The notes under the pieces are model-generated. The model was given only the letters and a program-made list of their open reading frames with translations. It had not been told where the DNA came from and searched no databases. Shown here in pieces: positions 29,643-57,001 of a stretch of 64,000 nt of DNA. The translations under genes and the position numbers were made by a program. The stretch spans positions 1 through 64,000 of the forward strand of contig JAFPBO010000051.1 in assembly GCA_017390475.1 (NCBI GenBank), read 5' to 3'. Within the stretch, counting starts at the first letter, position 1, and each line of letters begins with the position of its first letter. The DNA comes from Loktanella sp. Lineage in GTDB: Bacteria; Pseudomonadota; Alphaproteobacteria; Rhodobacterales; Rhodobacteraceae.

Positions 29643-30212
29643 TCAGCCGCGCCAGGTACGAACCGGGCCACAATCCATATGGACAAAATTGGACCCGCCA
29701 TAGCGCCCGACGCCACCGGCGTTGAAAGCCGCCGCCGCACTGGCCATTTGCGAAATTGACCGGCTGCGCAAACGCAGGTCAGCAGCCTGGCCGCGCATAT
29801 GCAGCGAATCGCGCGCAACGCCGGATGACCGCTGCCCCAGCATCGAATTGGTTGCCGGTGACCGGTAACCGGACAGCAGCAGGTAAGGTTCGCTGGTTTC
29901 CATCAGCCGCGCCGCGCCGGACATGATGTCAATGGTGCGCAGATCCATCTGTACGGCTTCGCCGGTGCGCCAGTCGCGCATGTGCATGTTGATCTCACGC
30001 ACGGCTTCGGCGATATATTCGCCTTCAATCCAGTAAATTGTATCGAGAGTTTCGCCTGTTCGTCCGTTGAACATGGCAATGCGGCGGATGTCACCTGCGC
30101 CGCGCAGAAAGCCTTGAGCATTGGCAAAGGTAGGTGCGGCTGTCACTGCGGTTGCCGCCAGAGCACTCAATAACCCGCGTCGGGTCATGCCCGAAATCTT
30201 GTTCTTGTCCAT
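29643..30212 (-). CDS. Tat-exported DUF882 protein (LAS/YcbK-like peptidase fold)
   Basis: This 189-residue protein has a twin-arginine leader (MTRRGLLSALAATAV, cleavage near FANAQ). The body is DUF882/peptidase M15-like: SGYRSPATNSML, then SLHMRGQAADLR (His and Asp) and FVHMDCGPVR (His) supply the zinc ligands of the LAS fold. Relatives act on or bind peptidoglycan in the periplasm. It has its own terminator, so it is transcribed separately from the mnh operon. Confidence 0.87.
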   Translation of the reverse strand: MDKNKISGMTRRGLLSALAATAVTAAPTFANAQGFLRGAGDIRRIAMFNGRTGETLDTIYWIEGEYIAEAVREINMHMRDWRTGEAVQMDLRTIDIMSGAARLMETSEPYLLLSGYRSPATNSMLGQRSSGVARDSLHMRGQAADLRLRSRSISQMASAAAAFNAGGVGRYGGSNFVHMDCGPVRTWRG

Positions 30213-30472: not shown

Positions 30473-31534
30473 ATGACTTATTCCATTCGGGACATTGCGG
30501 CGGCCCTGGGCGCGCAGGCTTTTGGCGATCTGGACCTGACGGTCACCCGCGCGACAGAGCCGGGGGCGGCAGGACCGGATGATCTGGCGCTGGCGATGCA
30601 GCCTGCCTATGGCGCGGCTTTGCACCGCGGATCGGCGCGGGCCGCCGTGTTGTGGCCGGATGCGGATTGGCAATCTTACGGTTTGCAGGCCGCTATCATC
30701 GCACCGCGTGCGCGGTTGGCGATGGCGCGGCTGACCGGGATGCTGGATGCGCCGCAGGACCGCAGCGGGATCAGCCCGCAGGCGCTGATCGACCCGACAG
30801 CGGTGATCGCGGCGGATGCGACGATTGGTGCGTTTTGCGTGATCGGCGCAAATGTCGTGATCGGGCAGAATGCCTGGATCGCCGATCAGGTCAGTATTGC
30901 CGCCGGTGTCCGCATCGGTGCCGATTGCCAGATCCATGCCGGTGTGCGGTTGCAACGGCACGTCACACTCGGCGACCGGGTGATCCTGCAGCCGAATGTG
31001 GTGATCGGCGGCGATGGGTTTTCCTTTGCCACCGCCGAACCCTCGAATGTTGAAATCGCCCGTGAAACGCTGGGGGCGGCGGGTCTGAACCCGCCGGACG
31101 ATCCGCGCTGGCACCGGATTCATTCGCTGGGCGGGGTCGTGATTGGCGATGATGTCGAAATCGGCGCCGGGTCCACGGTGGATGCCGGCACGATTCGCGC
31201 CACCAGCATCGGACAGGGCACCAAACTGGATAATCTGGTGCAGATCGGGCATAATGTGCGTGTTGGCGCGCATTGCCTGCTTTGCGCGCAGGCGGGGGTG
31301 GCCGGGTCCAGCGTGATCGGTGACCGGGTTGTCGTGGGCGGCAAGGCCGGGATCGCCGATAATCTGCGGATCGGTGATGATGTCGTACTGGGTGGCGGGT
31401 CGGTTGTGTTGTCAAATGTGCCCGCAGGCCGGGTGATGATGGGCTATCCGGCGACAAAGATGCAGACCCATATCGACAGCTACAAAGCCCTGCGTCGCCT
31501 GCCACGGCTGCTGCGCGATCTGGCAGGACGGTAA
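30473..31534 (+). CDS. lpxD: LpxD, UDP-3-O-acylglucosamine N-acyltransferase
   Basis: This 353-residue protein has the LpxD N-terminal uridine-binding domain (about 1-100), then a left-handed beta-helix of hexapeptide repeats (VIAADATIGAFCVIGANV, VVIGDDVEIGAGS). The catalytic histidine is in VQIGHNVRVG, and a C-terminal helix follows. ATG 30473 has AGAGGTGG upstream; a longer frame from 30413 has no support. It adds the amide-linked acyl chain of lipid A from an acyl-ACP. It is followed by an acyl carrier protein and a ketosynthase instead of fabZ. Confidence 0.92.
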   Translation: MTYSIRDIAAALGAQAFGDLDLTVTRATEPGAAGPDDLALAMQPAYGAALHRGSARAAVLWPDADWQSYGLQAAIIAPRARLAMARLTGMLDAPQDRSGISPQALIDPTAVIAADATIGAFCVIGANVVIGQNAWIADQVSIAAGVRIGADCQIHAGVRLQRHVTLGDRVILQPNVVIGGDGFSFATAEPSNVEIARETLGAAGLNPPDDPRWHRIHSLGGVVIGDDVEIGAGSTVDAGTIRATSIGQGTKLDNLVQIGHNVRVGAHCLLCAQAGVAGSSVIGDRVVVGGKAGIADNLRIGDDVVLGGGSVVLSNVPAGRVMMGYPATKMQTHIDSYKALRRLPRLLRDLAGR

Positions 31535-31592
31535 TCGTTTACATAATCGTCACATTACCTACATAGATGCAGTCACAGAACGGAGCTTTGCC

Positions 31593-31853
31593 ATGACCAC
31601 TGACGAAAAGATCATCGCGATTATTGCTGAACAGGCCATGCTCGAACCCGGCGATGTCACGCCCGAGGCGTCACTGGCTGATCTGGGGATCGATTCGCTG
31701 GGGCTGGTGGAATGTATCTTCGCGATCGAGGAAAGTTTCGACATCACCGTGCCGTTCAACGCCAATGACCCATCGGAAAGCGATTTTGACATCTCGTCGG
31801 TCGGGGCGATCATCGCGGCAGTCAAACAATTGCAAGCGGATCAGGCCAAGTAA
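31593..31853 (+). CDS. Acyl carrier protein
   Basis: This 86-residue ACP carries the phosphopantetheine attachment site DLGIDSLGLVE (Ser35). It has 86 residues and a tail after helix 4, so it is not the housekeeping AcpP, which is near fabG/fabF in most genomes. It lies 58 bases after lpxD and overlaps the ketosynthase by one base (TAATG). It probably carries a special acyl chain for the adjacent enzymes. Confidence 0.88.
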   Translation: MTTDEKIIAIIAEQAMLEPGDVTPEASLADLGIDSLGLVECIFAIEESFDITVPFNANDPSESDFDISSVGAIIAAVKQLQADQAK

Positions 31854-33064
31854 TGGCGCGTGTCGTCATTACCGGTGCTGGCACGATCAATCCGCTGGGC
31901 GCAGATGTGCCATCCACCTTTGCCGCCATGCGCGAGGGCCGCTGCGGGATCGGGCCGCTGGATATTCTTGATGTCGAAAGGCTGGCAATCCAGATTGGCG
32001 GCCAGATCAAAGGGTATCAGGAAACCGATCATTTCAACCGTCAGCAGATCGCGCTTTATGACCGGTTCACGCAATTTGCCCTGCTCGCGGCGCGCCAGGC
32101 GGTCGGCCAGTCCGGGCTGGCATTTTCCGGTGCGCTGGCGGACCAGTCCGGTGTGATCTTTGGCACCTCCGGTGGCGGTCTGACCACGCAGGATGAAAAT
32201 TACCGCGCCGTCTATGAAGAGGGCAAGAACCGGGTCCATCCGTTCATCGTGCCCAAGCTGATGAACAATGCCGCCGCCAGCCATGTGTCGATGGAATGGA
32301 ACCTGCGGGGACCGACCTTTACCGTGGCCACGGCCTGCGCGTCGTCCAACCATGCGATGGGGCAGGCGTTCAACATGATCCGCTGCGGTATGACCAAGGT
32401 CATGCTCACCGGTGGATCCGAAGCCATGTTGTGTTTCGGCGGCATCAAAGCCTGGGAAGGGCTACGGGTGATGTCCAAGGACGCATGCCGCCCGTTTTCC
32501 GCCACCCGCAACGGCATGGTGCAGGGCGAAGGTGCCGGGGTCTTTGTGTTCGAGGAATATGAACATGCCCGCGCTCGCGGTGCCGATATCCTGTGCGAGG
32601 TGATTGGTTTCGCCATGACATCCGACGCCTCTGATATCGTGATGCCATCAAAACAGGGTGCAGCCCGCGCCATTGCCGGTGCGGTCAGGGATGCGGGCAT
32701 TCCCAAGGATGCGGTCGGCTATATCAACGCGCATGGCACCGGCACCGCGGCCAATGACAAGACAGAATGCGCCGCCGTCGCCGATGTGTTCGGGCGGCAT
32801 GCAGATAAGCTGATGATCTCATCCACCAAAAGCATGCATGGCCATCTGATCGGCGGCACCGGGGCTGTGGAATTGCTGGCCTGTATCATGGCGCTGCGCG
32901 ACGGGGTGATCGCGCCGACGGTCGGTTACGAAGAACCCGATCCTGAATGCGCGCTGGATGTGGTGCCGAATGTGGCGCGCGATGCCGATATCGACGTCGC
33001 CTTGTCGAATGCCTTCGCCTTTGGCGGGCTGAATGCAGTGCTGGCTTTGCGTAAATTCGCCTGA
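31853..33064 (+). CDS. Beta-ketoacyl-ACP synthase (FabF-like)
   Basis: This 403-residue thiolase-fold ketosynthase has an intact active site: Cys162 (TACASSNHA), His294 (NAHGTGT), Lys326 and His331 (KSMHGH). It condenses malonyl-ACP with an acyl chain to give a 3-oxoacyl-ACP. Its start overlaps the ACP stop. No ketoreductase or dehydratase gene accompanies the pair. Its position with lpxD and a private ACP suggests it makes a lipid A acyl donor. Confidence 0.9.
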   Translation: MARVVITGAGTINPLGADVPSTFAAMREGRCGIGPLDILDVERLAIQIGGQIKGYQETDHFNRQQIALYDRFTQFALLAARQAVGQSGLAFSGALADQSGVIFGTSGGGLTTQDENYRAVYEEGKNRVHPFIVPKLMNNAAASHVSMEWNLRGPTFTVATACASSNHAMGQAFNMIRCGMTKVMLTGGSEAMLCFGGIKAWEGLRVMSKDACRPFSATRNGMVQGEGAGVFVFEEYEHARARGADILCEVIGFAMTSDASDIVMPSKQGAARAIAGAVRDAGIPKDAVGYINAHGTGTAANDKTECAAVADVFGRHADKLMISSTKSMHGHLIGGTGAVELLACIMALRDGVIAPTVGYEEPDPECALDVVPNVARDADIDVALSNAFAFGGLNAVLALRKFA

Positions 33065-33103: not shown

Positions 33104-33694
33104 TCAATCGACGATGTCGAGCCCGTCATAACCGGCGGTAAACCCGGCCAGCGACATGGTCAGCAGGAATTCTTCTTCCGGGGCAGCGGCAGGCACCAGA
33201 CGCAGCACGGCGGAAACACCGGCCTTCATCTGATCAATCTCGCCCTGGGTCAGACCCAGCCGCGCGACACAACCAGCCGCATTGCAGAAAGAGAAAGGAT
33301 ACCGGCGCGACTCGCCGCCGTTGACGGTGATGGTCAATTGCTGGGTCAGCAAGGTTTCCAACGGGACGACGACATTGGCACCGGCGACAGCCTGCCCACC
33401 TTCCGGCAGACGGAACAGATTGAATTCAGCGACCGGCGCATCATCGGCATTGGTCAGCAATTGATACAGATTGCAGCGGTCTTCCTCGCCCTCGGGCGCG
33501 CGCAAACAGCGTTTTTCCCAATCGCCGTAATTATCGGAGACATAGATCTGACCTGTGTCGGATTCGACCGGTTCGCCCAGATCAAGCATATCAGCAACGG
33601 GGGGTGTTTCAGTCTCGGTCGTGTCCTGCCCAAAGGTCTGAGTGCCGAGGGCCAGCAGTCCCGCCAAAGTCGCGGCGGTCAAAGTCATGCGCAT
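33104..33694 (-). CDS. Invasion-associated locus B (IalB) family protein
   Basis: This 196-residue protein has a signal peptide (about 1-22, ending FGQ). It has the IalB-domain pattern: YGDWEKRCL, then EDRCNLYQLL, RYPFSFCNAAGCVARLGL. The paired cysteines probably form disulfides in the periplasm. Despite the family name, it is common in free-living Rhodobacteraceae and its role is not settled. AGGA lies nine bases before the ATG. Confidence 0.87.
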   Translation of the reverse strand: MRMTLTAATLAGLLALGTQTFGQDTTETETPPVADMLDLGEPVESDTGQIYVSDNYGDWEKRCLRAPEGEEDRCNLYQLLTNADDAPVAEFNLFRLPEGGQAVAGANVVVPLETLLTQQLTITVNGGESRRYPFSFCNAAGCVARLGLTQGEIDQMKAGVSAVLRLVPAAAPEEEFLLTMSLAGFTAGYDGLDIVD

Positions 33695-49378: not shown

Positions 49379-50713
49379 TTGGATCTGATGCAATTCGTGC
49401 CGATGTTTGGCAATTTCGCTTTCATGATCGTGGCCTTCGTCGTGGCCCTTTCGGTGATCGTGGCGATCCATGAATACGGCCATTACATCGTCGGTCGCTG
49501 GTGCGGCATCAAGGCAGAGGTGTTCTCGCTTGGCTTTGGCCCGGTGATCTATAGCCGGAGGGATCAGCACGGCACCCTGTGGCAGGTCGCGGCGCTGCCT
49601 TTGGGCGGTTATGTCAAATTTCTAGGCGATGCCAATGCCGCCAGTGTCGGGTCGGACTACAGCGTTGACCCTGCGCTGGCGCGGCAGACCATGACCGGCG
49701 CGCCGCTTTGGGCGCGCACGCTGACCGTGGCGGCGGGGCCTGCGTTCAATTTCATCCTCGCCATCGCGATCTTTACCGGGTCGATCATGTATCAGGGCCG
49801 CACGATTGACCCGATCACCTATGGCCAATCCTATGATCTGCCTGCGCAATTCACATCTGACCTGCAACCCGGCGATCAGATCATTGCTGTCGAAGGGGTG
49901 CCGTTTTCCGATACCGAACGGCAAGATACCCTGCTGGACCTGCTGCCCTTGCAGGAAAACCTGACCTATACGGTGATCCGCGATGGCCGTCAGATCGACG
50001 TGACCGGCCCCTATCTGATGCCGACGATGATTTCCGCGCTGGCACCACGCTCGGCGGCAGATAATGCCGGGCTGCGGGTCGGTGATGTGATTACCGCCGT
50101 GGATGGCGACCCGATCTTTGCCTTCCGGCAATTGCAGGAAAAAGTGATCGCCGCTGAAGGCGCGCCGCTGGACCTGACCATCTGGCGCGCCGGGCGTGTG
50201 CTGGATGTGACTCTGGCACCCCGGATCACGGACGAGCCACAGCCGGGCGGCGGTTTTGCCCAGACCTATCGGATCGGCATCACCGGGCAATTGTTCTTTG
50301 ATGCGCAGACCGAAACGGTCGGCCTGTTCGAGGCCGGGCGTCTTGGGGCCGAAGGATTGTGGAACACCGCCACGACATCAATCTCGGCGCTGCATCATAT
50401 CATCGTCGGGCGGATATCGACCTGTAACCTGTCCGGTCCGGTCGGTATCGCCGAAACCAGCGGGTCCATGGCGCGGCAAGGCACGCAAAGTTTCATCTGG
50501 TTTATCGGGGCTTTGTCGGCGGCGGTCGGGCTAATCAACCTGTTCCCGATCCCGGTGCTGGATGGCGGTCATCTGATGTTCTACGCCTATGAGGCGGTGA
50601 CCCGGCGCAAGCCCAGTGATCGCGCCGTGCAGGTGTTCATGTTCCTTGGTCTGGCGCTGATCCTGACGATGATGTCCTTCACTGTGCTCAATGACACAAT
50701 CTTTTGTCCTTGA
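49379..50713 (+). CDS. rseP: RseP, site-2 protease
   Basis: This 444-residue membrane metalloprotease has the zinc motif HEYGH (His31, Glu32, His35), two PDZ domains (about 125-270, including GLRVGDVITAVDGDP) and the second metal motif PVLDGGHLMFYAYE. The TTG at 49379 has GGGA at a good distance; ATG 49388 is the alternative. In relatives it cleaves anti-sigma factors and leftover signal peptides. Confidence 0.92.
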   Translation: MDLMQFVPMFGNFAFMIVAFVVALSVIVAIHEYGHYIVGRWCGIKAEVFSLGFGPVIYSRRDQHGTLWQVAALPLGGYVKFLGDANAASVGSDYSVDPALARQTMTGAPLWARTLTVAAGPAFNFILAIAIFTGSIMYQGRTIDPITYGQSYDLPAQFTSDLQPGDQIIAVEGVPFSDTERQDTLLDLLPLQENLTYTVIRDGRQIDVTGPYLMPTMISALAPRSAADNAGLRVGDVITAVDGDPIFAFRQLQEKVIAAEGAPLDLTIWRAGRVLDVTLAPRITDEPQPGGGFAQTYRIGITGQLFFDAQTETVGLFEAGRLGAEGLWNTATTSISALHHIIVGRISTCNLSGPVGIAETSGSMARQGTQSFIWFIGALSAAVGLINLFPIPVLDGGHLMFYAYEAVTRRKPSDRAVQVFMFLGLALILTMMSFTVLNDTIFCP

Positions 50714-50824
50714 ACCGGCAATAATCAGCGGAAATCAGGCGGTCGCATTGGTTTTGTCTTTTTGACAACGACAATCAATCCGGCTACTCCGTTTGCAACT
50801 GGGAATTCAGGACAGGCGGTCGAA

Positions 50825-53131
50825 ATGCAGAAAATTGGTGGGCGCGCTTGGGCGCATGGCGTGGCAACGGCGCGCGTGGTTGCGACGGTGGCGGGGATGG
50901 CCGTTCTGGCCACAGGGCCTGCCAGCGGGCAAAGCCAGTCCTTCAGCAGCTTTTCGATCGAAGGCAACCAGCGCGTCACCGATGGCACGATCCTGACCGT
51001 CGCTGGTCTGCGCACCGGCGAGACGTTCAGCACCGCCGAACTGAACGATGCCGCGCAGCGGATCCGGGAATCGGGTCTTTTTGAAACGGTGGATGTCATT
51101 CCACAGGGCGGCACTCTGGTGATCCGGGTTGTTGAATTCCCCACGATCAACCGCATCAGCATCGAAGGCAACAGCCGCATCCGTGATGCGCAGCTCTTGC
51201 CGCTGGTGCAATCCGAACCGCGCCGCGCCTTTAACCCGGTGCAGGCAGAGGCGGATACCGCCGCGATCACCCAAGCCTTTGCCAGCCAGGGCCGGATCAA
51301 TGCCGTGGTCACGCCACGGATCATCCGTCTGGCCGAAAATCGCGTCGATCTGGTGTTTGAAGTCACCGAATCCGGCGTGACAGAGATTGAACGGATTTCC
51401 TTCCTCGGCAACCGCACCTATTCCGCCGAACGGTTGCGGCGGGTGCTGGATACCAAACAGGCAGGCTTTCTGCGGGCTCTGGTCACGCGCGATACATTTT
51501 CGCCCGACCGGATTGCGCGCGACCGCGAATTGCTGACCGATTTCTACCGTTCGCGCGGTTATGCCGATTTCGAGGTGCAGAATGTCGATGTCACGCTGAC
51601 GCCGGAACGCGATGCCTATCTGGTGACCTTCAATGTCCGCGAAGGGCAGCGGTTCAATTTCGGCAATGTCACCGTCAGCAGCGCCATTGAAGGTGTCGAT
51701 CCGGCTGATTTTCAGGATGCGATCCGGGTGCGCGCCGGGGCCGTCTATTCGCCGGTGCCGATTGACACCGATATCACCCGTCTGGAACGGCTGGCAGTGC
51801 AAAAGGGCATCAACTTTGTCCAAGTGGAACCACGCATCACCCGCAATGACCGCGATCTGACGCTGGATCTGAATTATGTGCTGGTTTCTGGGCCGCGCGT
51901 CTTTGTCGAACGGATCGACATTCAGGGCAACAGTACCACGCTGGACCGGGTGATCCGCAATCAGGTCCGCGTCGTCGAAGGTGACCCGTTCAACCCGCGC
52001 GAAATCGCTGATTCCGCCCGCCGGATTCGCGCGCTTGGGTTTTTCCAGAATGCAGCCGTCGAAACCCGGCAGGGCAGTTCGGAAAATCAGGTGATCGTCG
52101 ATGTCGATGTCACCGAAGGGCCGACCGGCACATTGTCATTCGGGGCCAATTACAGCATCGACACCGGTATCGCGCTGATCGCCTCTTACGGCCAAAGCAA
52201 TTTTCAGGGGCGCGGCCAGCGGCTTGATTTCGATATCTCGACCGCCGAGTCGAACCAGCGGCTGTCGTTCCGTTTTGCCGAACCACAATTGCTGGGCCGC
52301 GATCTGCGCGGCGGGATAGAGCTGTCTTATCTGCAGACCAACCGTGAAAATGCGCTTTATGACACGCAATCCTTTCGGTTCAGCCCGACGTTGGCCTTTC
52401 CGATCAGCGAAAACGGGCGGCTGACGCTGTTCTATGCGTATAATTACACTGATCTGTCGAATATCTCTGACGAGGCCAGCCCGATTATCCAGAACGAGGG
52501 CGATATCGGCGCGGTCAGCACCAATTCGCTGGGCTATTCCTATACCTTTGACAACCGCCGCACCGGGCTGGACCCGACAGCTGGGGTGATCCTGCGCTTT
52601 GGTCAGGAATTCGGCTTTGGCGACAGCCAGTTCATCAAGACGACAGCGCTGGCCGGTGCCGAACGCATGGTGCTGAACGAAGAGGTGACTTTGCGTGCCA
52701 CGGTCGAAGGCGGCTATCTGGATTATCAGCAAGGGCAAAGCCGGGTTACTGACCGTTTCTTCCTTGGCAGCCGTCTGATGCGCGGCTTTGAAGGCGGCGG
52801 GATCGGTCCACGCTCTGTCGAACCATTCGACGACGCCCTTGGCGGCAACGCCTATGCCGTCGCCCGGCTGGAGGCGGAATTCCCTCTGGGTCTGCCCAGC
52901 GAATACGGCCTGTCGGGCGGGGTATTTCTGGATTACGGCTCGGTCTGGGAAACCGGATATGACAGCACGCTGGTCGATTACGACAGTTTCACCGGTCGGT
53001 CGGTCATCGGGGCCTCGATTTTCTGGACCACGCCGATCGGGCCATTACGTTTCAACTTTACCGAACCGCTGGATGTGCAGGACCGCGACCGGACCCGGTT
53101 CTTTGACGTGACGATCTCGACCAGTTTCTGA
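50825..53131 (+). CDS. bamA: BamA, outer-membrane protein assembly factor
   Basis: This 768-residue protein has a signal peptide (ends near GPASGQ), five POTRA domains (to about residue 400) and a 16-strand barrel ending in Phe (VTISTSF). The barrel contains the FRFAEPQLLGRDLRGG and FFLGSRLMRGFEGGGIGPR segments; the VRGF-type loop 6 motif appears as MRGF. ATG 50825 has AGGCGG upstream; a TTG start at 50762 would lengthen the leader. It inserts barrel proteins, probably including the one at 1345-6354. Confidence 0.94.
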   Translation: MQKIGGRAWAHGVATARVVATVAGMAVLATGPASGQSQSFSSFSIEGNQRVTDGTILTVAGLRTGETFSTAELNDAAQRIRESGLFETVDVIPQGGTLVIRVVEFPTINRISIEGNSRIRDAQLLPLVQSEPRRAFNPVQAEADTAAITQAFASQGRINAVVTPRIIRLAENRVDLVFEVTESGVTEIERISFLGNRTYSAERLRRVLDTKQAGFLRALVTRDTFSPDRIARDRELLTDFYRSRGYADFEVQNVDVTLTPERDAYLVTFNVREGQRFNFGNVTVSSAIEGVDPADFQDAIRVRAGAVYSPVPIDTDITRLERLAVQKGINFVQVEPRITRNDRDLTLDLNYVLVSGPRVFVERIDIQGNSTTLDRVIRNQVRVVEGDPFNPREIADSARRIRALGFFQNAAVETRQGSSENQVIVDVDVTEGPTGTLSFGANYSIDTGIALIASYGQSNFQGRGQRLDFDISTAESNQRLSFRFAEPQLLGRDLRGGIELSYLQTNRENALYDTQSFRFSPTLAFPISENGRLTLFYAYNYTDLSNISDEASPIIQNEGDIGAVSTNSLGYSYTFDNRRTGLDPTAGVILRFGQEFGFGDSQFIKTTALAGAERMVLNEEVTLRATVEGGYLDYQQGQSRVTDRFFLGSRLMRGFEGGGIGPRSVEPFDDALGGNAYAVARLEAEFPLGLPSEYGLSGGVFLDYGSVWETGYDSTLVDYDSFTGRSVIGASIFWTTPIGPLRFNFTEPLDVQDRDRTRFFDVTISTSF

Positions 53132-53679
53132 TGATGATGATCTGGCGCGCAATGATGGTCTGGCTGTTGCTGGCGCTGCCGGTGGCAGCCCAGCCAACCG
53201 TGCCAGCCGAGGTTGCGCCAGCCGGACCGCAGGTCCTGATCATCGACAGCGAAAGATTGTTCTTTGAAACCGAATATGGCCGGCGCATCTCGGCCGATCT
53301 GGCCGAAAAATCAGCGCAATTACAGATCGAAAACGACGAAATCGTCCAGAGTCTGACCGAAGAAGAACGCAGCCTGACCCAACGCCGTCCCACGATGGAC
53401 CCCGACGCCTTTCGCGCCGAAGCCGCCGCCTTTGACACGCGGGTACAAGAGGTCCGGCGCGACCGCGAGGCCAAGACCAGCGAACTGGCCGCCGAGGCGA
53501 CCCGCGCCCGTGCCGCATTCGAAGAACGGGTGCAGGCGGTTGTCGCCAGTATCATGCTGGAACGCGGCGCTGCCATGGTGATGGAACAGCGCAATGTGAT
53601 CTTGTCGGTGCGGTCTGCCAATATCACCGATGATGCCGTCGCGCGGATCAACGACACATTGGGCGATGGCACGCAATAG
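53131..53679 (+). CDS. OmpH/Skp-family periplasmic chaperone
   Basis: This 182-residue protein has a signal peptide (about 1-20) and a long coiled-coil middle (about 60-140, [20 protein letters not shown] and on) typical of Skp tentacles. Its start overlaps the bamA stop by one base. It carries unfolded outer-membrane proteins to BamA. Confidence 0.87.
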
Positions 53680-53746
53680 CCACGCTTGCCGTGCCTCGCG
53701 GGGATTGCTAGTCAGGTCCCTATTGCTGCCAGAACAAGGAAAACTC

Positions 53747-54208
53747 ATGTCCGACCCCGTGACCAAGGCCGATATCCAGCTGATCCAGAAAATCCTGCCT
53801 CATCGCTATCCTTTTCTGCTGGTGGACAAGGTGCATAGCATCGACGGCACCACATCGGCGGTCGGCGTCAAGAATGTCACGATGAACGAACCCTATTTTC
53901 AGGGCCATTTCCCCGGCAACCCGATCATGCCTGGTGTGACGATTGTCGAGGCGATGGCACAGACATCCGCCGTCATGGTCGGTGCCTCGCTCGGGCTGAT
54001 CAATGGCGATCTGCTGGTTTACTTCATGGCGATTGATGCTTGTAAATTCCGCCGCAAGGTCGTGCCGGGTGATGTGCTGGAAATGCGCGTCGAAACCACA
54101 CGCGGCAAACCGGGTGGCAAGGTCTGGCGTTTCAAAGGTGTCGCGACCGTTGATGGCGAACTGGCCGCAGAGGCGGAATTTACCGCAATGATGGATATGC
54201 AGGGCTGA
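53747..54208 (+). CDS. fabZ: FabZ, 3-hydroxyacyl-ACP dehydratase
   Basis: This 153-residue hot-dog-fold protein has catalytic His54 ([14 protein letters not shown]) and Glu68. It dehydrates 3-hydroxyacyl-ACP in fatty acid synthesis. ATG 53747 is the family start; the longer frame overlaps the chaperone gene. In most Proteobacteria lpxD lies immediately upstream; here it does not. Confidence 0.95.
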
Positions 54209-54990
54209 TGGCGGTGATCCACCCCTCTGCCGTGATCGCCGATACTGCGCAGATCGGCGCGGGCTGTGATATCGGCCCGTTCTGCGTGATCGGCCCCGAT
54301 GTGGTGCTGGGCGACAATGTCACCCTGAAAAGCCATGTGGTGATCGACGGCGATACCCATATCGGGGCGGGCAGCACGGTGTTTCCTTTTGCCGTGATCG
54401 GTGAAATCCCGCAGGATCTGAAATTCGCAGGTGAAAAAACCCGGCTGCGCATTGGCGCGCGCAACCGTATCCGCGAACATGTCACGATCAACACCGGCAC
54501 CGCGCAGGGCGGCGGCATCACCCGTATCGGCGATGATGGCCTGTTCATGGCGGGCTGTCATATCGCCCATGACGCGCAGATCGGTGACCGTGTGATTATC
54601 GTCAATTCCTCTGCCGTGGCGGGCCATTGCGTCATCGAGGATGACGTGATCATCGGCGGCCTGTGCGGTGTGCATCAATGGGTGCGGATCGGCAAAGGCG
54701 CGATCATCGGTGCTGTCACCATGGTCACCAATGATGTCGTCCCGCATGGTCTGGTGCAAGGCCCGCGCGGCGTGCTGGACGGGCTGAACCTTGTCGGGCT
54801 GAAACGCAAAGGCGTGGACCGCGCCGATATCACCGCTTTGCGCGCTGCGTTCCAGATGCTGAAAGATGGCGAAGGCAATTTTCAGGACCGCGCCCGCAAA
54901 TTGGGCGACGAAAGCGAAAGCGCCTATGTGCAGGATATGGTCCGTTTCATCCTTGGCCATACCGACCGCAATTTCCTGACGCCGGGCTGA
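54208..54990 (+). CDS. lpxA: LpxA, UDP-GlcNAc O-acyltransferase
   Basis: This 260-residue protein has a left-handed beta-helix of hexapeptide repeats (GCDIGPFCVIGPDVVLGD), the catalytic His in MAGCHIAHDAQIGD and a C-terminal helical part. It carries out the first step of lipid A synthesis. It overlaps fabZ and lpxI by one base each. Confidence 0.95.
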   Translation: MAVIHPSAVIADTAQIGAGCDIGPFCVIGPDVVLGDNVTLKSHVVIDGDTHIGAGSTVFPFAVIGEIPQDLKFAGEKTRLRIGARNRIREHVTINTGTAQGGGITRIGDDGLFMAGCHIAHDAQIGDRVIIVNSSAVAGHCVIEDDVIIGGLCGVHQWVRIGKGAIIGAVTMVTNDVVPHGLVQGPRGVLDGLNLVGLKRKGVDRADITALRAAFQMLKDGEGNFQDRARKLGDESESAYVQDMVRFILGHTDRNFLTPG

Positions 54991-55868
54991 TGCTGGCGCT
55001 GATCGCAGGCACCGGCGATCTGCCACCGGCATTGCTGGCGCGTCTGCCACAGCGGCCTTTGATCTGTGCGCTGCAGGGGTTCACGCCGCAGATCACGCCG
55101 GATATCACCTTTCGCATCGAACATCTGGGCACGTTTCTGGCTGATCTGGCCGCGCGCGGCATCACCGATATCTGCATGGCAGGGGCGGTGAAACGCCCCG
55201 CTATTGATCCGCGCCAGATTGACGTGGCGACAAAACCTCTGGTTGCAAAACTGCAAGAGGCGATGGGCAAAGGCGACGACGGCACCCTGCGCGGCGTGAT
55301 CGCGATCTTGGAAAATGCCGGGTTCAATATCGTCGCGGCGCATGAACTGGCGCCGGACCTTCTTCCGGCTCCGGGCATTCTGGCGGGGCTGGTGTCGCCA
55401 CAGATCAGGCTTGATGCGGTACTGGGCGAACAGACCATCGCCGCGATGGGCCGCGCGGACATCGGGCAGGCCTGTATCGTGCAACAGGGCAGGGTGATCG
55501 CGCGCGAAGATACGCAAGGCACCGATGCCATGATCGCACGCTTTGCGCCGGATGATGACCCGCTTTGGGGCGCGGTCGATGCGATGGGCGGGCTGCTCGG
55601 CTCTGCTGCTGAATGGTTGTCCGGGGCCGATGGCATCCCCGTCGATGCGCGCGGCGCTGTGCTGTTCAAAGCACCCAAGCCCGGTCAGGACCGCCGCGCC
55701 GATCTGCCCGTGATCGGACCGCAGACCGCACGCGGTGCTGTCGCGGCAGGGCTGGCAGGCATCGTGGTCGAGGCAGGGGGCGTTATTGTTCTGAACCCTG
55801 ACCAGATCAGCGATATCCTGCGTCAGGCCGGTTGTTGTTTCTGGGTCCGGCCAAAGGGCGGCGCATGA
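54990..55868 (+). CDS. lpxI: LpxI (DUF1009), UDP-2,3-diacylglucosamine diphosphatase
   Basis: This 292-residue protein has the LpxI N-terminal (LALIAGTGDLPPALLA) and C-terminal (GAVLFKAPKPGQDRRADLPVIG) domains. It replaces LpxH in Alphaproteobacteria and makes lipid X. It overlaps lpxA by one base and lpxB by four. Confidence 0.93.
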   Translation: MLALIAGTGDLPPALLARLPQRPLICALQGFTPQITPDITFRIEHLGTFLADLAARGITDICMAGAVKRPAIDPRQIDVATKPLVAKLQEAMGKGDDGTLRGVIAILENAGFNIVAAHELAPDLLPAPGILAGLVSPQIRLDAVLGEQTIAAMGRADIGQACIVQQGRVIAREDTQGTDAMIARFAPDDDPLWGAVDAMGGLLGSAAEWLSGADGIPVDARGAVLFKAPKPGQDRRADLPVIGPQTARGAVAAGLAGIVVEAGGVIVLNPDQISDILRQAGCCFWVRPKGGA

Positions 55869-57001
55869 AGGTGTTCGTGATCGCGGGCGAGGCGTCGGGC
55901 GACAAGCTCGGCGCGGCGCTGATGGCGGGGCTGAAACAATTGCGCCCGGATGTGACATTTGACGGTGTCGGCGGCCCGCTGATGCAGGCCGAAGGGCTGG
56001 TCAGCCGGTTTCCGATGGATGAGTTGTCGGTCATGGGGCTGGCTGAAATCCTGCCGAAATACCGTGCCTTGAAAGCGCGGATCAGGCAGATGGCCGATGC
56101 GGTCGTCGATACGCAGCCTGATGTGCTGATCACCATCGACAGCCCCGATTTCTGCCTGCGTGTGGCAAAGCTGATCAAGGCACGCAGCCGCATCCGCACC
56201 GTCCATTACGTCGCCCCGACGGTCTGGGCCTGGCGGCCGAAACGCGCCGCGCATATGGCGCAGCATATCGACCATGTGCTGGCCTTGTTCCCGTTTGAAC
56301 CGCCTCTGATGCAGGCTGCGGGCATGCGCTGCGATTTCGTCGGGCATCCGGTGGTGACGGACCCGATTGCCAGCGCCGATGATGCCGCAGCCCTTGGCGC
56401 TGGCACAATGATCCTGGTCCTGCCCGGCAGCCGCAAGGGCGAGGTCAACCGCCTTGCGCCCCGTTTCGGGCAGGCCATCGCCAGGATCGCCGCACAGGTG
56501 CCGGATGCGCGTTTCATCATTCCGACCACCGCCAATGTGCATGATCTGGTGCAGGCCCAAGACTGGCCCGTCCCGGTGACAATCCTGCCGCCCGCCAGCC
56601 CGGACAAGGCGGCATGGTTTCGCCGTGCCGATGTGGCGCTGGCGGCGTCGGGCACCGTGTCGCTGGAACTTGCTGCCAATAACACACCGATGGTGATCGC
56701 CTATGACATGGCATGGCTGAGCCGGATCATCATCAGCCGGATGCTGTTGGTCGATACGGTCACCTTGGTCAACCTCGTCAGTGACACACGCACAATCCCC
56801 GAATTTATCGGCAAAGCCTGCCAGCCCGGACCCATCGCTGATGCCGTGCTTGCCGTCCTTGCCGACCCCACAGCGCAACAGACCGCAATGGATGTCACGA
56901 TGGCGCGGCTTGGGCGCGGCGGTCTAGCCCCCGGCCTGCGCGCGGCGCAAGCGGTGCTGGATGGCCTTGACCAGCCTGCCGTCATGGACCACCAGACCTG
57001 A
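55865..57001 (+). CDS. lpxB: LpxB, lipid A disaccharide synthase
   Basis: This 378-residue GT19 enzyme has the GEASGDKLGAALM start, DSPDFCLRVAK, VWAWRPKRAAHMA, LPGSRKGEVNRLAP and SGTVSLELA motifs. It joins lipid X and UDP-diacylglucosamine. Its last 78 bases overlap, in antisense, the end of the transporter gene on the other strand. No terminator lies between the two. Confidence 0.94.
   Translation: MKVFVIAGEASGDKLGAALMAGLKQLRPDVTFDGVGGPLMQAEGLVSRFPMDELSVMGLAEILPKYRALKARIRQMADAVVDTQPDVLITIDSPDFCLRVAKLIKARSRIRTVHYVAPTVWAWRPKRAAHMAQHIDHVLALFPFEPPLMQAAGMRCDFVGHPVVTDPIASADDAAALGAGTMILVLPGSRKGEVNRLAPRFGQAIARIAAQVPDARFIIPTTANVHDLVQAQDWPVPVTILPPASPDKAAWFRRADVALAASGTVSLELAANNTPMVIAYDMAWLSRIIISRMLLVDTVTLVNLVSDTRTIPEFIGKACQPGPIADAVLAVLADPTAQQTAMDVTMARLGRGGLAPGLRAAQAVLDGLDQPAVMDHQT

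Follow-up and report, generated by a model that had tools for sequence, protein, structure and literature searches.

The lipid A of Rhodobacter sphaeroides is described as having oxotetradecanoic acid at its reducing sugar, with an acyloxytetradecanoic acid at the distal one (PMC5852877). In the gammaproteobacterium Spiribacter salinus the non-reducing sugar is reported always to bear 14:0(3-oxo), and the reducing one, likewise without exception, 14:0(3-OH) (PMC5923411). The latter report also states that the usual fatty-acid procedure missed the 3-oxo acid in S. salinus, this acid being lost during the procedure, probably by decarboxylation, and that R. sphaeroides and R. capsulatus have a 3-oxo chain in their lipid A, a TLR4 antagonist that gave the idea for Eritoran. 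The LpxD enzyme of E. coli is presented as highly specific for 3-hydroxymyristoyl-acyl carrier protein (ACP), and a figure legend in the same source has the 3-hydroxyl in contact with Asp232 and Gln236 (PMC6286764). Here we analyse an lpxD gene of Loktanella sp. (Rhodobacteraceae) that is followed by genes for an ACP and a FabF-like ketosynthase (KS), all within a window, by which we mean the whole stretch of DNA analysed, of 64,000 nucleotides (assembly GCA_017390475.1, contig JAFPBO010000051.1, positions 1 to 64,000). We consider it probable, judging from sequence comparisons, that the three genes constitute a dedicated ACP-KS-LpxD module for the amide-linked chain of lipid A, as had been proposed from a reading of the sequence alone. 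The open-licence literature searched held no account of this trio or of the origin of the 3-oxo chain, which is weak evidence of absence, and passages of a review from 2025 on how lipid A is regulated do not mention oxo chains (PMC12444477).

Gene content of the locus

The sequence-only reading had described lpxD followed by an ACP and a FabF-like KS with an intact active site, and profile matches together with a Cys-His-His triad bear this out. The three genes are as follows.

30473-31534, + strand: lpxD, for a UDP-3-O-acylglucosamine N-acyltransferase that belongs to a divergent clade, 353 amino acids (TIGR01853, 280.3 bits, cut-off 242.5)
31593-31853, + strand: private ACP with the motif GIDSLGLVECIFAIEE, 86 amino acids (Pfam PP-binding, 43.9 bits, cut-off 20.8)
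31853-33064, + strand: FabF-like KS of the subfamily that contains NodE, 403 amino acids (PRK07314, 439.5 bits, cut-off 387)

A gap of 58 bp separates lpxD from acp, and the acp stop and the ks start share one base (taATG); over 187 loci of the family the median distances are 33 bp (lpxD-acp) and 3 bp (acp-ks), and the spacing of the trio is operon-like. LpxD falls narrowly below the cut-off of the short LpxD domain of Pfam (27.7 vs 30.8) and carries the catalytic His260 (E. coli His239), Asp253 (E. coli Asp232) and the equivalent of E. coli Gln236. The KS triad (Cys162, His294 and His331) is intact and recurs in all 109 family KSs compared, that of the window included. This KS scores under the equivalog model of FabF, the housekeeping KAS II (TIGR03150, 455.9 bits vs 493.75), and the genome of the window has a separate fabF beside acpP. 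The private ACP is under the cut-off of all 13 NCBIfam models listed, NF005079 among them.

No ketoreductase gene was seen in or beside the trio when the open reading frames (ORFs) of the window were read, in agreement with the earlier description. On the same contig, at a distance of about 370 kb, FabG (TIGR01830, 323.9 bits, cut-off 297.75) is encoded together with fabD (named by ORF reading), acpP and fabF.

The trio holds the only lpxD found in the genome

The lpxD of the trio was the only LpxD found in a search of the genome, which is 99.99% complete, and this rules out that it is an extra copy. The standard lipid A cluster lies 16-24 kb downstream.

49379-57001, + strand: rseP-bamA-skp-fabZ-lpxA-lpxI-lpxB cluster, without lpxD (names from ORF reading; lpxA at 54208-54990)

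There is no lpxD between skp and fabZ in this cluster, unlike in canonical loci: among 30 of these, chosen because their LpxDs scored highest in the Alphaproteobacteria, fabZ comes directly after lpxD in all 30 and bamA was found upstream in 28, and E. coli K-12 shows the order skp-lpxD-fabZ-lpxA. The standard lpxD is thus missing, and the copy in the trio appears to replace it. Since this is the sole lpxD of a genome with lpxA and lpxC, its product likely performs the N-acyl transfer to UDP-3-O-acyl-glucosamine.

Conservation of the trio in the family and beyond

The conservation of the locus was followed in 149 genomes drawn evenly from the order, all of which belong to one family. LpxD was detected at E <= 1e-40 in 140 of them, and lpxD, acp and ks occur together at 139 of the 142 LpxD loci read, the exceptions being a second copy in each of two genomes (G122 and G132) and the one lpxD that G134 has. 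All nine genomes without LpxD at this threshold carry the KS, eight of them with lpxD adjoining and an ACP-sized gap, which brings the linked trio to 147 of 149 genomes. Among named loci, taken as the best 80 of at least 581 matches, the trio is present in 79, including those of Paracoccus kondratievae, Phaeovulum veldkampii, Rhodovulum, Ruegeria, Roseovarius and Yoonia litorea; R. sphaeroides and R. capsulatus are not among these 80. As to the second LpxD copies (L252 in G122 and L250 in G132), one belongs to the clade of trio LpxDs and is not accompanied by acp-ks, and the other is very divergent (31% identity, on a long branch), yet over the PRK00892 cut-off.

A linked trio of this frequency cannot serve to discriminate between lineages with and without 3-oxo lipid A, given that it is nearly family-wide. 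Scoring its presence against known 3-oxo lipid A was dropped for this reason and because few structures are known; none was found in the literature searched for Yoonia, Ruegeria or Roseovarius, all of which have the trio.

In the window, the trio is flanked by two genes on the opposite strand, and homologues of both flank it in many loci of the family.

29643-30212, - strand: mepK-like peptidase, divergent neighbour (NF053624, 209.4 bits, cut-off 185; context only)
33104-33694, - strand: IalB-family protein (Pfam IalB), convergent neighbour (context only)

Outside the family, the KS was found (E <= 1e-92) in 26 of 337 alphaproteobacterial genomes sampled across the class, 21 of which are non-family genomes. 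In 12 of these 21, representing 11 families, lpxD, acp and ks follow each other in the same order (at L239 the contig ends within lpxD). Neither mepK nor ialB adjoins the trio in any of the 12, and the neighbours, listed for eight of them, are unlike those in the window. The presence of the linked trio in 147 of 149 family genomes and in 11 other families indicates that the arrangement is not due to chance. Two of the 12 loci (L229 and L232, from a single genus) have an lpxB-like gene immediately upstream of the trio, and two of the 12 genomes (G219 and G392, one genus) also hold an LpxD whose score falls in the canonical range.

Related acp-ks pairs were also seen in other settings. At L235 and L241 (family f102) ORF reading places the pair beside genes for a thiamine pyrophosphate-dependent dehydrogenase E1 and a lipoyl-domain hydrolase-like protein, not beside lpxD. 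No lpxD was found at ten KS loci, two of them on short contigs, that were fetched from a different class of the same phylum, and non-alphaproteobacterial relatives of the KS were accordingly set aside as makers of 3-oxo chains. Several of the non-alphaproteobacterial pairs of the same subfamily (L307, L309, L312 and L313) lie among aminotransferase-like and HAD-like genes, as judged by ORF reading, perhaps in another lipid pathway.

Phylogeny of LpxD and the ketosynthase

A tree of LpxD, in which the family was represented by 14 randomly drawn loci, the window and L249 besides canonical sequences, places the LpxDs of trio loci in one clade (support 99/95), apart from the 30 canonical LpxDs (100/93). 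Two unlinked copies of the family (L108 and L134) nest in the trio clade. In the KS tree, where the family rows were eight drawn loci, the window, L249 and G141, the trio KSs belong to a subfamily (100/99) that is sister to FabF and includes NodE; the label NodE was given because the neighbouring ACP matches solved NodF at 3e-34. Bit scores leave no wide gap between FabF and the subfamily (490 vs 473) among the matches listed, and the boundary was drawn by eye and is backed by the tree. The acp-ks pairs of L317, L318, L319 and L323 (family f150) fall in the NodFE clade and are not visibly among nod genes; they are a possible source of nodFE.

ACP surface and residues near the acyl chain

The private ACP has Gly after the DSL motif in 134 of 149 family loci, the window included, whereas AcpP, found at 14 of the 16 loci searched (the 14 being from 12 genomes), has Asp at this position and always reads DSLDTVELVMAFEEEF; that search required LGADSL, and three of the 14 loci are from the genome of the window. 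In the trios of other families it is the Asp before the phosphopantetheine Ser that is replaced (11 of 12). Acidic residues flanking this Ser may help housekeeping enzymes dock.

LpxD residues were compared in two sets, of 119 loci plus the window (with controls) and of 228 loci plus the window, with some genomes repeated. The catalytic His (E. coli His239) and Asp are present in 120 of 120 family LpxDs, and the Asp232 equivalent is kept in 229 of 229 rows of the larger set. The Gln236 equivalent, kept in 97 of these 229 rows, is changed in 72 of the 120 LpxDs of the smaller set (His in 65, Met in five and Thr in two) and kept in 48, as against changes in one of 30 canonical and three of 11 other-family trio LpxDs (L239 excluded because of the contig end). 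As the window and seven of the eight named Paracoccus rows retain Gln, the change at Gln236 was rejected as a clean marker of 3-oxo chains. Cross-tabulation of LpxD position 236 with LpxD position 290 and with KS position 113 gave no clean link.

The position of E. coli His276 was compared as well.

31361-31363 of the window: LpxD residue 297, which matches E. coli His276

This residue is Asn in 114 of 120 family LpxDs and His in all 30 canonical LpxDs and in all 11 from other-family trios. The change was set aside as an argument for 3-oxo chains because the matching Chlamydia His, paired with E. coli His276 via an offset of eight residues, contacts the UDP phosphate and not the acyl chain according to a figure legend (PMC6286764).

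In the KS, the pocket position presumed to correspond to FabF Ile108 is Trp in 55, Gln in 29 and Leu in 17 of the 109 family sequences, and Ile in 14 of 14 FabF. Together, the residue changes in LpxD and KS may mean that the acyl chain or its recognition differs in this family, with no pointer to a 3-oxo group.

Possible functions of the module

The gene content, the single lpxD, the recurring linkage, the family placement, the intact active sites and the changed ACP surface argue for a module dedicated to lipid A. In such a module lpxD, acp and ks would act as a single unit: the NodE-type KS would charge the private ACP by condensing on it to give a 3-oxoacyl-ACP, and the chain, reduced or not, would be handed to the divergent LpxD, which would prefer the private ACP as donor and attach it to the 2-amino group of UDP-3-O-acyl-glucosamine, where it would become the amide-linked chain in lipid A. 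Use of a private ACP would separate this chain from the AcpP pool. The view of KS and ACP as private to LpxD is supported by the recurring linkage, the sole lpxD and the changed ACP surface; the other half of the sequence-only reading, in which a 3-oxo chain may be handed over before reduction, is compatible with these data. The oxidation state and length of the chain are taken up in the two forms of the module considered below.

One form, plausible if still tentative, is that acp-ks sets only the length or unsaturation of the chain: the KS would extend it to a particular length on the private ACP and FabG would then reduce it, so that LpxD would transfer an ordinary 3-hydroxyacyl chain, and any 3-oxo group would be introduced at a later stage by an oxidase specific to one of the sugars. 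This would agree with the position-specific 3-oxo group in both published structures, those of R. sphaeroides and Spiribacter as far as described, with the Asp-Gln pair retained in the LpxD of the window, and with the variable KS pocket at the presumed Ile108, as if chain length differed between genera. It leaves the need for a separate ACP unexplained, and no oxidase candidate was seen beside the trio.

The other form is possible but rather doubtful. Here the private ACP would shield the KS product from FabG, and LpxD would transfer the unreduced 3-oxoacyl chain, directly making the 3-oxotetradecanoyl amide of Rhodobacter. The trio has no ketoreductase, and FabG sits with AcpP; the private ACP has lost a helix-II acid that AcpP retains; Gln236 is changed far more often in the family than in canonical or other-family trio LpxDs; and 3-oxo-14:0 is described on the reducing sugar of R. 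sphaeroides lipid A. Against this stand the invariant Asp232, the Gln kept by the window and most named Paracoccus rows, and the specificity of E. coli LpxD for a 3-hydroxyacyl donor. The one-sided placement is a further difficulty, with only one sugar bearing the group in the R. sphaeroides structure and the opposite sugar in that of Spiribacter. Both lipid A sugars derive from one LpxD product in the Raetz pathway, and a one-sided 3-oxo chain is therefore awkward for a simple origin at the level of LpxD. Strict one-sidedness suggests either downstream selection, for instance by a secondary acyltransferase needing a 3-hydroxyl, or late oxidation. R. capsulatus carries 3-oxo chains on both sugars, a point that would favour an origin at LpxD but that the literature searched did not confirm. 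If this form of the module were true, 3-oxo lipid A would be made by way of the trio, whose LpxD would, to our knowledge, be the first with a 3-oxoacyl donor.

Several observations weigh against the dedicated module as a whole. Because mepK and ialB are also conserved neighbours, the linkage of the trio inside the family is partly general synteny, and two of the other-family trios (L240 and L244) have one further neighbour in common. LpxD-linked and unlinked KSs intermingle in the KS subfamily, and the KS lies away from lpxD in nine of the 21 non-family genomes. In G134 lpxD has been relocated, so that it and acp-ks are on different contigs, and in a metagenome bin (L387) no lpxD precedes acp-ks. 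In two non-family genomes (G212 and G309) acp-ks is present, yet a search at E <= 1e-30 found no LpxD. Finally, a family genome assembled as a single contig (G141) has no lpxC and no lpxD by search and keeps acp-ks with an intact active site.

C1:912000-931000 (G141, locus L247): L,D-transpeptidase-like gene, acp and ks retained

Nothing of comparable strength was found in G141 with the LpxD model that picks up LpxA in G000 and G134, and no search with the own model of lpxA was made; G141 is apparently a relative without lipopolysaccharide. Since acp-ks is kept without lpxD in G141, G212 and G309, the pair must have another use there. Aminolipid N-acyltransferases take 3-hydroxyacyl-ACP (PMC11631085) and are one possible customer.

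It could be supposed from these cases, and from the related pairs that adjoin other genes in other bacteria, that acp-ks is a general specialised acyl supply for several N-acyltransferases (for example of the OlsB type, for aminolipids), with lpxD an adjacent and non-exclusive partner, but we regard this as unlikely given that the lpxD linkage recurs in the same order in 11 other families and that the LpxDs at trio loci form a clade of their own.

As for the dedicated module, the question of the 3-oxo origin becomes testable through the joining of the only N-acyltransferase to an acp-ks pair that almost the whole family shares. The module would also mean that a lineage can exchange a primary acyltransferase of lipid A for a divergent relative with a carrier and a synthase of its own.

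Comparison with described systems

Canonical LpxD, encoded in the order bamA-skp-lpxD-fabZ-lpxA, belongs to the same enzyme family as the LpxD of the trio, which keeps the catalytic His and Asp; the latter differs in its separate clade, its location and the family-specific changes at E. coli positions 236, 276 and 290.

In the AcpXL system of Rhizobiales, the chain transferred by LpxXL is a secondary acyl chain. NF005079, which we take to be an AcpXL-type model, gives the private ACP 36.4 bits vs a cut-off of 83, and an AcpXL-type very-long-chain system was therefore rejected. The AcpXL-FabZXL-FabF2XL-FabF1XL-LpxXL set resembles the trio in joining a private ACP and KSs for a special lipid A chain, and is described as differing in the very long chain, the transfer by LpxXL and the FabZ and dehydrogenase in the cluster (PMC11901934). 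The rejection also draws on the ORF reading, in which no fabZ, dehydrogenase or lpxXL was seen beside the trio. AcpR, of sphingolipid synthesis, is likewise a private ACP dedicated to one lipid-forming enzyme, but is reported to be charged by an acyl-ACP synthetase and to serve serine palmitoyltransferase, with another acceptor (PMC9386255).

In NodF-NodE of rhizobia, as in the trio, a private ACP directly precedes a KS, the two KSs being of one subfamily, and the one NodF-like ACP examined has Gly after DSL, so that it and the private ACP both read DSLG. NodE forms a separate clade of the KS subfamily (five rows, 100/100), and the trio KS lies outside it; no nod genes were seen beside the trio in the ORF reading, and we do not assign its ACP and KS to NodF and NodE. 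The acceptor also differs, the acyltransferase is of the LpxD family and not NodA, and the chains made by NodF and NodE are polyunsaturated. NodA, fed by NodF-NodE, acylates the amine of glucosamine, and by analogy the logic of the trio resembles that of NodF-NodE-NodA, with an ACP and a KS that would feed an N-acyltransferase.

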